From a virus: a stretch of 22,271 bases of DNA. This document shows positions 15,323 through 19,530 of the stretch, piece by piece (position 1 is the stretch's first letter; every line of letters starts with the position of its first letter). The notes under the pieces are model-generated. The model searched no databases. It was not told the origin of the DNA and saw only the letters and a program-made list of their open reading frames with translations. A program made the position numbers and the translations under genes. The DNA lies in the IMG/VR virus record IMGVR_UViG_3300050120_000212, positions 1-22,271 of that record, one strand, 5' to 3'.

Positions 15323-17278
15323 ATGGAACCTCTTAAACTCACTGAAGCATTAGCAGCAGACATCAGGGCTCGGGTTAAGGCGATTGATTTTGGGGCCATT
15401 GAGAAGATCAAGAAAGCAGAGAAGGAGAACGGCACCTTCGACGTTATCATCTCCACCGAGGACGTAGACCGCGCAGGTGAAGTCGTCCGCCAGAACGGCT
15501 GGGACCTCACCAACTACAAGAACAATCCGATCGTTCTTTGGGGTCACGACTACTACGGCCTTGCTATCGGTATCTGCACCGAAACGTACAAGACCGAGAG
15601 CCACGGCGTTCCTGCATTGGGAGCCAAGGGCGTCTTTTTCGGCGCTGACATCAATCCGTTGGCGCAGCAAGTGCGCCGCATGTACGACTACGGCATCAAG
15701 AGTGGCTTCAATGTCGGCTGCACCACCTCCGTCGGTTTTATTCCGAAGGACTTTGACCCCGACAATCGCAACATCATCACAAAAGCCGAGCTATTAGAGT
15801 TCTCGTTCGTGTCCGTACCCGCGAATCAGGGTGTTGGACCGGCAAAAGGACGCTCCCTCACTTTCGCCGAGGCTCGCACCCTCCAGCTCGACGTTGTTGG
15901 CCTGCGCCAGAAGGGCGTCGAATTCACCGAGGTTCAGGGCTTCATTCCCAAGAGCCTGGGCGAGACCATTGCGCCTGCCGAGACCGCATGGAAGCAACCT
16001 ACCCTCAAGGATTTCACCGATAAGGAATGGGCTGACCTGGACGAGGCCGAGATCAAGGAGATCGCCGGTCATTTTGCATACGTAAAACAGTACCCTCCCG
16101 ATAAATTCGAAGACCTCAAGCTTGCCTACCGCAACGCCGAGGGCGCCATCGTCCTCAAGGGGCTTAAATCAGCCGTTCGCGACCTCAAGGGCGCCCGTGC
16201 GGGTGTTGACGTGGAAGGCGACGTAAAGCCCGTCTACGAGCACCTGGCGAAGCTGTACAGCCTGTTTGGCGAGACAGCACCGGAGCTGAAGACCATCAAA
16301 GAAGCCCAGGCGGGCGATACTTGCCAGATGGAAGATGGCGGCTCTGGCACCCTCCAGTCCGATCCAAACGACGCGGACGGCCCCCTGGTCTGCGTTCCAG
16401 CCGAGGCCAAAACTGCCAAGGACGAGCACGGCTCCCAGAAGGAACTGCTCAAGGCCGTAGGCGACGAGCACGACCGCCATACCGGCGAAATCGAAAAGGC
16501 CCTCGAAAACTACGCTGGCACTGGCGAGAAATCGGCTGGGAAGTTCAAAGACCTTCGCGATTCGGTGAAGGACGAGCACACCATGCACCGCGCGAAGTCA
16601 ATTGAGAATTTCAAGGACTTCAAACCATCGGAAGAAAAGGCATTCGACCGCAATCCACACCTCAAGGCCCTTCGTGACGAGCACGACGCATATGAGGCCA
16701 AGAACACCAAGTCCTTGGACGACTACGAGGAGAAATGCACCAAGAGCGTCGATGACGACAGTGCTCCAAATCCCGCCGAGTGGATTGCCGGCAAGATGGA
16801 GGACAATCAGCGTGCGCACAAGCGTGCGGTCAACAAGATCGCCAAGAGCATGTGCAAGGAGGCATTTGGCGAAGAGGACCAGGCCGATGAAAAGACGCTT
16901 GAAATCCTGAAGGAGTTCCTGTCACCGCACGTTGACGCACAACTTCTGACCGCACTTACCGCAAAGATTGGCGCACGCATCACGTCGGAGCGCACCAAAC
17001 AGCTGGGCGAGGCCCATCAACATCTGAAAGCTGCAACCGCCGTGTTGGAGAGTCTGTCAAAAGCTCTCGGAGACGGCAGCGGGGAGATAGAGCCGGCAGT
17101 GGTCGCGGCTCCCGCAACGCAAAGGTCGGTAACCGCAAGAGTCGCCCCTGTGAAGAACGATGAGCTTGATGCACATCTCTTCGCGCGCGATCTGTTGCGC
17201 GACATTACCACTGTGGCAACCGCAGGTCTCAAGAACATTAACGAGGAGATTCGCGCTAACGGCCGCAGTGCCAAATAA
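15323..17278 (+). CDS. Prohead protease fused to a scaffold-like coiled coil
   Basis: A protein of 651 residues. Residues 35-175 are an HK97-type (S78) prohead protease: IISTEDVDRAGEVV, WGHDYYGLAIG with H75, TTSVGF with probable catalytic S136, and AELLEFSFVSVPAN. This protease cleaves scaffold and capsid delta domains during maturation. Residues about 185-325 form a helical domain (WADLDEAEIKEIAGHFAYVK ... FEDLKLAYRN) often found after such proteases. Residues 330-360 are a small cysteine-paired module (C334, C357) shared with the gene at 18618. Residues 366-600 are charged helices with four DEH repeats, likely the scaffold. Ending near the capsid gene, this is a protease-scaffold fusion. 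It has no direct SD. Confidence 0.88.
   Translation: MEPLKLTEALAADIRARVKAIDFGAIEKIKKAEKENGTFDVIISTEDVDRAGEVVRQNGWDLTNYKNNPIVLWGHDYYGLAIGICTETYKTESHGVPALGAKGVFFGADINPLAQQVRRMYDYGIKSGFNVGCTTSVGFIPKDFDPDNRNIITKAELLEFSFVSVPANQGVGPAKGRSLTFAEARTLQLDVVGLRQKGVEFTEVQGFIPKSLGETIAPAETAWKQPTLKDFTDKEWADLDEAEIKEIAGHFAYVKQYPPDKFEDLKLAYRNAEGAIVLKGLKSAVRDLKGARAGVDVEGDVKPVYEHLAKLYSLFGETAPELKTIKEAQAGDTCQMEDGGSGTLQSDPNDADGPLVCVPAEAKTAKDEHGSQKELLKAVGDEHDRHTGEIEKALENYAGTGEKSAGKFKDLRDSVKDEHTMHRAKSIENFKDFKPSEEKAFDRNPHLKALRDEHDAYEAKNTKSLDDYEEKCTKSVDDDSAPNPAEWIAGKMEDNQRAHKRAVNKIAKSMCKEAFGEEDQADEKTLEILKEFLSPHVDAQLLTALTAKIGARITSERTKQLGEAHQHLKAATAVLESLSKALGDGSGEIEPAVVAAPATQRSVTARVAPVKNDELDAHLFARDLLRDITTVATAGLKNINEEIRANGRSAK
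16421..16684 (+). repeat. DEH repeats inside the scaffold region
   Basis: The 9-mer GACGAGCAC, coding Asp-Glu-His, occurs four times in frame, at 16421, 16463, 16571 and 16676. Spacings are 42, 108 and 105 nt. The surrounding protein repeats loosely as L-x(4,5)-DEHxxH-x(7)-L/I-x-x-Y/F. Confidence 0.7.
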
Positions 17279-17281
17279 TTT

Positions 17282-18553
17282 ATGACAGAACAAGAAAAGA
17301 GAGAGCAGCAAGCACAAATCAAAGCGATGCACGTCACTGCTTTTGATGAAGTGATGAAAGAGAAGCTTGTTCCGATAATTGGCGAACAGACCGCTTTCCA
17401 GGTCGGAGAGATCGTCAAGAAACTGGACTTGCAGCGCAAGACCGTCGGTCACGACATGACCGGATTGACTTCTAAGGCGAAGAAGGACTTCGTTGAAGTC
17501 GTCAAGGCTACCGTGTTCAAGGATTTTGCTATCGACACCAAGGCCAACGAGGCTTTGATCGAGGAGCAGGACAACCGCGGCGGCTACTTGGTATCTCGCG
17601 AAATTGCAGACGCTATCATGCGTATCGCAGCTTCGGTCGGTACCATCTTGAGCCAGGCGGCTAAGTGGGACATGACCACCGATGAACTCGGTGTGCCAAA
17701 CTACACTGGCTCCTTCCTCAAGGGATCGTACCTTGGCGTAGACCAGGCAGGCACTGTTACCGGACTCACGTTCGGCCAGGCTCAGCTCATTGCTAAAAAG
17801 TGGCAGCTCGCATTTGTGGTTGGTAACGACCTCCTTGCAGATGCCTCGGTCAACCTCGCAGATTGGCTTCTCGCCCTTGGCGGTGAAGCTCTTGCGAACA
17901 TGATCGACTACCAAGGTTTCATTGGCGGCGCAAATACCGGAGATCCATTCCTCGGTCTTTTGAACTACCCTTCGACTGCTACGGTAGACGAGACTGGCCA
18001 GAAGGTCACTTCATACGTTTTGCCAACCGGCGAAACGACTTTCGCTACCATGAAAGTTATGGACGACAGCTCACAGATGATTGGCTCTCTTGAAGAGTCC
18101 ATTCTTGATGGTGCTGCGTTCTATATGCATCGCACCGTTTGGGCCAAGCTCCGTGTTCAGAAGGATACGGCTGGCAACTACATCTTGCCGTACGCTGGTT
18201 GGGCTAAACCAGACCCTGCAATGCAAAACATCGCAGGCGGCGGACCTATCAAGCCAGCAGGCGAAATCCTCGGCTATCCTGTGTACACCAACCGTTGGCT
18301 CCCAGCAGTTGGCGCTTCATCGGTAAACGGCTTCTCCGACGGTGCAAGCAACCCTTTCACCATCTTCGGCAACATGAAGGCATTCGCATTTGGCGACAAA
18401 GGCGAGATGCGCGTTGCACAGTTCGAATCCGGCAGCTTCGGCGGAAAGGAAATTGCGTTGGCAGACCAGCGCGGACTTGTTTACAAGCACCGCCACGCTC
18501 TGACACTCGCACTTCCCCGCGCAATGGTTGTTGGCAAAACAGCAGCGTCCTAG
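17282..18553 (+). CDS. Major capsid protein, HK97 fold
   Basis: The shell protein, 423 residues. The first 90 residues are charged helices (EQEKREQQAQIKAMHVTAFD) that probably form the delta domain, removed or used as an internal scaffold. After an EEQDNRGGYLVSREIADAI boundary the HK97 core starts, with ASVGTILSQAAKWDMTTDEL, a long E-loop region, the spine helix (LADWLLALGGEALANMIDYQ) and the P-domain (LGYPVYTNRWLPAV, IFGNMKAFAFGDKGEMRVAQ). The final KHRHALTLALPRAMVV is a typical last strand. The ATG is 3 nt after the protease stop in AAATAATTTATG, with no SD. Strong expression is expected, so the missing SD is notable. Confidence 0.95.
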   Translation: MTEQEKREQQAQIKAMHVTAFDEVMKEKLVPIIGEQTAFQVGEIVKKLDLQRKTVGHDMTGLTSKAKKDFVEVVKATVFKDFAIDTKANEALIEEQDNRGGYLVSREIADAIMRIAASVGTILSQAAKWDMTTDELGVPNYTGSFLKGSYLGVDQAGTVTGLTFGQAQLIAKKWQLAFVVGNDLLADASVNLADWLLALGGEALANMIDYQGFIGGANTGDPFLGLLNYPSTATVDETGQKVTSYVLPTGETTFATMKVMDDSSQMIGSLEESILDGAAFYMHRTVWAKLRVQKDTAGNYILPYAGWAKPDPAMQNIAGGGPIKPAGEILGYPVYTNRWLPAVGASSVNGFSDGASNPFTIFGNMKAFAFGDKGEMRVAQFESGSFGGKEIALADQRGLVYKHRHALTLALPRAMVVGKTAAS

Positions 18554-18561
18554 CCGATAAT

Positions 18562-18586
18562 GGAATAGCACCTCACGCGCTATTTC
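18562..18586 (+). terminator. Hairpin after the capsid gene
   Basis: AATAGC (18564-18569) pairs with GCTATT (18579-18584), extendable by G-U and G-C pairs, followed by TCTC. It is an AT-rich, weak terminator or an RNA processing or stability element at the 3' end of the capsid mRNA. Confidence 0.35.
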
Positions 18587-18617
18587 TCAGAACTTTATCC
18601 GGTAACATCTACATGTT

Positions 18618-18986
18618 ATGAGCGACGAACTAAAAGCATTGCAGGAAACTGCATTGCAGGCTCGGGCGAAAGCCGACGAGCTGAAAGCAGCACTCAACGA
18701 CCAGTCTTCAGACGAGGATTGGAAGGCAGCGGAACAAGCGGAAACTGACGCTACAACCGCTGAGAGCGCGTTTGCTGACGCCCAGGCGAAAGCCGACGCT
18801 GATGCAGCCGGCGCTCAACCTGATGATGCTGCGAAGGTAGACGAAGTCTCGGACGCAAGCCGCACTGGCTACGCTGAAAAGGGACTTCGTGCAGGCGACA
18901 AGTGCATTTGCCCTGATGGGCGAACGGGCACCGTCCACTCCTTCGATGCAGGCATGATCTGCATACCCAATCAGGACCAGGGCTAA
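18618..18986 (+). CDS. Putative capsid accessory protein with shared Cys module
   Basis: A protein of 122 residues. The N-terminal 80 residues are an Ala-, Glu- and Asp-rich coiled coil (ALQETALQARAKADELKAAL, ADAQAKADADAAGAQPDDA). The C-terminal 30 residues (GLRAGDKCICPDGRTGTVHS then FDAGMICIPNQDQG, residues 90-122) form a small module with C96, C98 and C115. The same pattern, AGDxCxxxDGxxGT ... GxxxC(V/I)P, is at residues 330-360 of the protease fusion. The gene follows the capsid gene directly, where decoration or head-stabilising proteins are usual. The ATG lies in ACATGTTATG without SD, near an AACAT/ATGTT dyad. Confidence 0.7.
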   Translation: MSDELKALQETALQARAKADELKAALNDQSSDEDWKAAEQAETDATTAESAFADAQAKADADAAGAQPDDAAKVDEVSDASRTGYAEKGLRAGDKCICPDGRTGTVHSFDAGMICIPNQDQG

Positions 18987-19001
18987 TACCAGGCCACGCG
19001 G

Positions 19002-19056
19002 TTTGCCCCCGCACTCGCCGTAGTCGACGGCGGTTGGCAAAACAATCACCAATCTT
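19002..19056 (+). promoter_or_regulatory. Leader element A with GC hairpin
   Basis: TTTGCCCCCG is followed by a CGCCGT/ACGGCG hairpin (19016-19021, 19027-19032, loop AGTCG), then an A/C-rich stretch and CAATCTTATG. Element B before the next gene has the same order and ending. Confidence 0.45.
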
Positions 19057-19530
19057 ATGCGTTTTAACCCCTATGATGACGTGCTTGTCGCACCGTCAAC
19101 TGTCAGCTCAGTAGCGATTAACTCGCTCGCTGGTTCTTCAGCAGTAAACGGCGATTCCCTCGACACGGCGGTAACGTTTGATGCCGATTCGATCATGGTG
19201 CATGTCCGCACCGAGATCGCATCTGGCTCGCCTTCAGCGGCGACTGTGGCTTGGGCACTCCAGGAGTCAGCCGACGGCTCGACCAACTGGACTGCGGCCA
19301 ATGACAACACTGGCACCGCTATCGGCGCTGTCTTGACTACCAAGACGGTAGCTCAGGACAGCTACGCTCGCGTTGAAGGCATCATGGTCAACCGCAAGCG
19401 CTATCTGCGCATTGTGTTGACCCCGACCTACACCAGCGGCACCAGCCCTGCGACGTTGGCTTTCGCCGAGTACATCGGTGCTCCAGGCAACAGCCAGGTC
19501 AACCAAGGTCGCGGCACTTCAAATACCTAG
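19057..19530 (+). CDS. Putative beta-sandwich head decoration protein
   Basis: A protein of 157 residues. It has a beta-rich pattern (VAINSLAGSSAVNGDSLDTA, FDADSIMVHVRTEIASG, then ATVAWALQESADGSTNWTAA) and a second strand set (YARVEGIMVNRKRYLRIVL TPTYTSGTSPATLAFAEYIG). The WALQESADGSTNWT segment is a common motif in virion beta-sandwich proteins. No enzyme motif is visible. The location between the capsid and connector genes supports a capsid-surface or head-completion role. The ATG is in CAATCTTATG, without SD, after a 70-nt leader with a hairpin. Confidence 0.7.
   Translation: MRFNPYDDVLVAPSTVSSVAINSLAGSSAVNGDSLDTAVTFDADSIMVHVRTEIASGSPSAATVAWALQESADGSTNWTAANDNTGTAIGAVLTTKTVAQDSYARVEGIMVNRKRYLRIVLTPTYTSGTSPATLAFAEYIGAPGNSQVNQGRGTSNT

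Follow-up and report, generated by a model that had tools for sequence, protein, structure and literature searches.

The virus record IMGVR_UViG_3300050120_000212 from IMG/VR, a stretch of 22,271 bases which was analysed over its whole length and is called the window below, carries on either side of its major capsid gene two genes whose products contain, as judged from their sequences, two copies of one homologous module of about 30 residues. The module has the consensus GD-x-C-x3-DG-x2-G...C-[VIL]-P. One copy (16310..16399, + strand; cysteines C334 and C357) occupies residues 330-359 of a protein composed of a prohead protease, a linker and a helical scaffold-like part. The other copy (18891..18971, + strand; C96, C98 and C115) occupies residues 92-118 of a 122-amino-acid (aa) protein encoded directly after the capsid gene, here termed the post-capsid protein. 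Both copies are backed by strands predicted by AlphaFold2 and by conservation. Both segments lie where the original prediction had placed them, with protease residue 330 at nucleotide (nt) 16310 and post-capsid residue 92 at nt 18891. The shared module is real and well supported; its role is ordinary but unproven, and it poses a small, testable question rather than representing a new kind of system.

When the whole protease was compared with the whole post-capsid protein by BLASTP, the top segment was the module (12/31 residues identical; E = 3e-4 for this single comparison). A profile of 34 protease modules, compared with a profile of 24 post-capsid modules, gave a probability of 97.9% and E = 3.2e-13. 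The sets for that comparison had been chosen by a hidden Markov model (HMM) seeded from both kinds of module; an independent HMM, derived from 38 protease modules whose viruses lack a module-bearing post-capsid gene, is the cleaner test. Among 24,065 open reading frames (ORFs), near copies included, its non-protease matches at E < 1 were solely post-capsid proteins or pieces of broken, frame-shifted or partly read proteases. The best post-capsid match had E = 7.8e-9 (L112) and the window's own copy reached 0.03, while the copies of L009, L024 and L102 gave E = 6.8, level with chance matches. All three comparisons bear out the original claim that one pattern is common to the proteins flanking the capsid gene. 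The aligned pair differs by a loop gap of four residues, and the protease copy has two cysteines and the post-capsid copy three. A comparison of predicted structures, which the original prediction had proposed, revealed no difference in fold: AlphaFold2 gave the same three-stranded meander for both modules, with strands at matching places.

The pattern as first written, AGDxCxxxDGxxGTx(H/Q)S, held for the cysteine/DGxxG core, but its H/Q position is not conserved; GT[VLI]H occurs in 15 of 25 distinct post-capsid modules and in 0/58 protease modules. CxC is present in 21/25 of the post-capsid modules. These frequencies would suit a metal-binding knuckle, with a zinc ion held by C96, C98, H107 and C115. 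Such a site is nevertheless very improbable, because the third cysteine and the histidine are absent from the protease copies, which have two cysteines only, and are not constant in the post-capsid copies; in a second virus, L002, a phenylalanine replaces the histidine.

The copying of the module appears to be an old event, since the DNA of the window's two copies is identical at 41/66 positions of aligned codons and at 10/22 third positions, and since module similarity within genomes (0.392) nearly equals that between genomes (0.381; permutation p 0.049). Two sets of distance tests, of five and sixteen, were carried out, and p values are uncorrected. Recent duplication or gene conversion was rejected on account of the low DNA identity and by a within-genome similarity barely above that between genomes.

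The post-capsid protein of the window (18618..18986, + strand) comprises a helical hairpin (residues 3-65), a disordered stretch (66-81) and the C-terminal module, according to AlphaFold2 and aligned relatives. An alignment of the window with 23 further loci (24 rows) showed that the module is the conserved C-terminal part of this family and follows a variable, mostly disordered or helical tail; mean pairwise identity was 0.62 in the module vs 0.35 in the N-terminal part. The latter ranges from a tail rich in Ala/Glu/Thr/Ser or in Pro to a helical hairpin, the window's type, which was recognized by eye in 5/24 rows. With this alignment, AlphaFold2 placed the module strands at residues 95-97, 103-109 and 112-117, with block means of 80-85 for the predicted local distance difference test (pLDDT). 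Compared with six relatives, the post-capsid module showed 12-17 differences at third codon positions, as against 2-5 at first and 2-5 at second positions. The module is held at the protein level, because the differences concentrate at third positions. No Pfam family, including DUF7210 (PF23843), matched the 122-aa protein at E <= 1. A weak resemblance of residues 1-65 to the N-terminal part of the major head protein family phrog_10 (E 0.026) was also observed, and the helical hairpin matched the phage capsid domain 2r9i with Z 7.5, level with unrelated helical rows.

The protein carrying the other copy (651 aa; 15323..17278, + strand) was assigned by PHROG match and AlphaFold2. Its residues 28-184 matched the head maturation proteases phrog_80 (E 1.4e-13) and phrog_617 (E 1.8e-16), but the cut-off of Pfam Peptidase_S78 was not reached (13.7 bits vs 21). 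By sequence, it is thus classed as a head maturation protease of the PHROGs that is merely S78-like. Residues H75 and S136, the putative catalytic His and Ser, are nearly invariant across 54 aligned proteases. So are G331, D332, C334, D338, G339, G342, G353 and C357 of the module, which two of the 54 proteins lack. AlphaFold2, run with this 54-row alignment, predicted a beta-rich protease part, long helices at residues 370-583 and 613-650, and module strands at residues 333-335, 341-346 and 355-359 (pLDDT about 77-83). In the model, low-confidence stretches flank the protease module on both sides (residues 324-327 and 362-367), which gives it the look of a bead in a flexible linker that joins the protease to the helical scaffold. 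In L045, L066, L081, L053 and L091 the protease linker looks like a cassette site; it contains other small cysteine inserts, among them a pair of similar C-x-P-x-S units in L045, as well as a domain with the sequence KLPHH. A frameshift within the protease module of L011 (L011:106-299; L177 is the same contig) may be natural or a sequencing error. In L030 (L030:3837-6158) the protease, the module, a short scaffold piece and the capsid protein are fused as one ORF of 774 aa that is devoid of most of the scaffold and of the capsid N-terminal part; this was seen in a single contig (identical with L094 and L166) and may reflect a deletion or an assembly fault.

Relatives were gathered by means of the capsid protein alone, blind to the module, which yielded 85 rows, near copies included. 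A readable protease was present in 75 of these and the module in 68 of the 75; the proteases without it were those of L045, L046, L053, L066, L081, L090 and L092. The slot after the capsid gene was measured up to a 157-aa gene (g157; 19057..19530, + strand; phrog_5707, E 8.7e-13), which served as marker of its far edge. Across the 85 rows it held a module-bearing gene in 22, a DUF7210-like gene in 15 and a tail-only protein in three, was a gap of 97-185 nt in 43 and was cut off in two. The tail-only proteins of L017 and L039 were read directly, and that of L086 was assigned because its gap is equal and its capsid row identical. The protease was readable in 19 of the 22 rows with a module-bearing post-capsid gene, and all 19 had both copies. 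A module-driven pattern scan returned 109 stretches, 46 of which failed confirmation, and a protease module was found in 63/63 confirmed loci. In 22 whole virus records, module matches (E <= 0.1) occurred only in the protease and post-capsid genes; one record, with a module-less protease, had none.

In a quick capsid tree of 84 rows (L088 was dropped as too short), for which support was given by the Shimodaira-Hasegawa-like approximate likelihood ratio test (SH-aLRT) without bootstrap, the 22 module-bearing post-capsid genes fell in one group of 23 rows (SH-aLRT 100), the exception being L017. Since all 22 lie in one supported group, their sequences are most simply explained by a single origin of the post-capsid copy, which was then retained. 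Compared with the post-capsid copy, the protease copy occurs more widely and is probably the older one; this direction is inferred, with the root of the tree unproven. The second virus, L002, shares the gene order of the window and has both copies, at identities of 54% in the protease, 76% in the capsid protein and 43% in the post-capsid protein. Tandem doubling of the module was observed in both genes (post-capsid L012, L027 and L030; protease L141/L142 and L152), which fits an autonomous unit.

Similar modules were also found elsewhere. A codon-pattern scan of viral contigs, blind to gene context, gave 41 stretches, of which 37 were proteases (one frame-shifted), three post-capsid genes and one a portal. 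The latter (L176:6314-7882), a phrog_146 portal, carries the similar module at its C-terminus, and the next gene encodes a head maturation protease of another family. A looser pattern gave 31 stretches: eight proteases, six post-capsid genes, five large cysteine-rich proteins and 12 judged to be chance. The large proteins (L202; L210 and three near copies) are low-complexity phage proteins whose genes are located close to amidase-like genes, and in L202 also to tail genes. Among bacterial genomes, the module was detected at E <= 0.001 in 3/379 of one phylum and 1/396 of another; three of the four carried protease modules. The fourth (L159:1060-1710, - strand) encodes a protein of 217 aa that starts with a hydrophobic stretch and has hydrophobic C-terminal helices and a similar module with an extra cysteine. 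By eye only, this protein is exported- and pilin-like, and its genome belongs to the phylum of the Patescibacteria bin L090. These occurrences, in the two pattern scans and in the bacterial genomes, indicate that the strict form of the module is tied to head assembly and that a general C-x3-DG-x2-G-...-C bead is used more widely. Restriction to capsid-linked proteins, on which the original prediction had depended, thus held within the 22 virus records, but not for the portal of L176 or the proteins of L202, L210 and L159.

Our preferred reading, which we hold tentatively and with less than even confidence, is that the module serves head assembly as a tag for docking or incorporation. It would be a small, independently folding bead of three short antiparallel strands, with a DGxxG turn and two conserved cysteines that lie close to its ends. 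The bead would be ancestral in the flexible protease-scaffold linker of this capsid family. A single copying event would have placed it at the C-terminal end of a small accessory protein whose gene directly follows the capsid gene. Through the module, the protease-scaffold and the post-capsid protein would both join the same procapsid assembly. Their shared partner might be the scaffold part, a further module copy or the shell's inner face, and the post-capsid protein would bring its variable N-terminal tail along as a passenger; docking on the capsid protein or of the two proteins on one another had been suggested by the original prediction. In favour of the tag stand the homology of the two copies, their narrow gene context, the presence of both in 19/19 rows, the conservation of the module within the post-capsid family, the tandem doublings and the matching predicted strands. 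Several observations weigh against this reading. Distances between post-capsid modules tracked best those of the scaffold part (partial r 0.41-0.46, p <= 0.003), but the control genes g157 (r 0.27) and that of the HK97gp10-like protein (r 0.29) also correlated with the post-capsid module (p 0.015-0.025), whereas the adaptor gave r 0.04. The module is absent from 7/75 proteases and is therefore not essential to this type of assembly; L017 retains the post-capsid tail without it; and in 43/85 rows the slot gap is too short for a post-capsid gene. That other large phage proteins and the exported-looking bacterial protein carry like modules suggests a general bead.

A close rival, likewise possible but doubtful, is that the module is a stable two-cysteine fold which passively spaces or protects flexible linkers of virion proteins and which recombination has carried from one gene to its neighbour, without any common partner; its cysteines may pair after the virion leaves the cell. 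This would agree with the predicted position of both copies within or at the end of disordered linkers, with loss of the module without loss of the gene in L017 and the seven proteases, and with the modules of L202, L210 and L159. Against a passive spacer speak the confinement of the module to two head genes within whole records, its strong conservation relative to the tail, and the retention of the post-capsid copy in 22/23 rows. A broader form of the tag reading, which we regard as rather unlikely, makes the module a cartridge dedicated to head assembly: as a folded incorporation tag with two cysteines, it would have been moved by phages between the protease-scaffold, the post-capsid protein and the portal of another family, so that one recognition event would draw several proteins into the procapsid.

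The position of the post-capsid gene directly after the capsid gene, its accessory distribution and the combination of a small folded end with a variable tail would also suit an outer decoration protein, in which the module would sit on the capsid surface with the tail outwards, and the protease copy would either attach to that capsid site from its own side or serve another purpose. A shared outer site is unlikely, because the prohead protease works inside the procapsid, and g157, the next gene, is an equally placed candidate for decoration. There is a precedent in T5 pb10, which shows that one domain can suffice to anchor a two-domain protein (PMC5292684). On balance, decoration appears improbable.

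In the window, the head genes are ordered large terminase, portal with a Mu-F-like part, protease-scaffold, capsid, 122-aa protein, 157-aa protein, head-tail adaptor, HK97-gp10-like protein and tail-terminator-like protein. The capsid protein (423 aa, without cysteine; 17282..18553, + strand) belongs to the HK97-fold family by its match to Pfam Phage_capsid (E 5.3e-26, 92.1 bits). HNH-type homing endonuclease-like ORFs, recognized by eye, were inserted downstream of the 157-aa gene in L028 (L028:6050-6616) and L047 (L047:6886-7533). The bins carrying the capsid relatives L090, L092 and L091 are titled Patescibacteria, Nomurabacteria and Acidobacterium, respectively.

The module is new to the libraries searched here. 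It had no match in Pfam, NCBIfam or PDB searches; the EGF-like domain (PF00008) stayed below the Pfam cut-off, appearing for one of four module rows (best E 0.043). Matches to thrombin and an eggshell protein (E 0.6-0.9) were rejected as weak, and a match to phrog_30847 (E 0.09-0.12) was not trusted. Fold searches of structure libraries were dominated by helices and uninformative on the module. Among isolated-phage records, no match was obtained with 15323-19530 (blastn), the 122-aa protein (tblastn) or the tandem module of L141 (tblastn), and four records matched by a single module at E 1-4 were taken as chance. The protease query matched 914 records of isolated phages and, among the 40 matches listed, all were to the protease domain only. 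In genome contigs searched with the 122-aa protein, 0/217 stretches were confirmed. No published description of such a module was found by title in literature searches, on which alone its absence from print is based, and these searches yielded nothing on DUF7210 or on prohead protease and scaffold with Patescibacteria.

How small accessory proteins enter or coat phage heads is known for few systems, and a 30-residue module common to a protease and an accessory protein would offer a simple, testable handle for HK97-type phages represented only in metagenomes. If it is an incorporation tag, it might be used for loading cargo into shells; even as a passive bead, it would be a recurrent small domain unmatched here by Pfam, NCBIfam and PDB.

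Among known systems, the slot after the capsid gene is also occupied by a small protein in the 15/85 relatives with a DUF7210-like gene (PF23843). These differ in sequence and have the mirror layout, with the domain N-terminal and the tail C-terminal. They were called by an HMM built here from DUF7210-like proteins; of ten such proteins, one passes the Pfam cut-off. FluMu_N had been considered as the slot protein of distant relatives and was rejected, as Pfam gave DUF7210. A precedent in kind is phage lambda, in which the head protease gpC likewise has a sequence segment in common with another protein of head assembly, Nu3. In lambda, however, this segment is the scaffold itself, the product of a nested gene, whereas here a 30-residue module lies in two separate ORFs on either side of the capsid gene. 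C-Nu3 and C-C interaction pairs are given for lambda (PMC3224144). The accessory capsid protein pb10 of T5 resembles the post-capsid protein in its two-part layout, helical and beta (PMC5292684), but in pb10 a complete Ig-like domain forms the beta part and capsid binding falls to the helices. Another precedent in kind is the capsid targeting sequence (CTS) of T4, a short element by which several head proteins are directed to the core of the prohead (PMC5694885). The CTS, however, is an N-terminal propeptide of 10-20 residues cut by the protease, whereas the module described here is internal or C-terminal, folded and marked by conserved cysteines.

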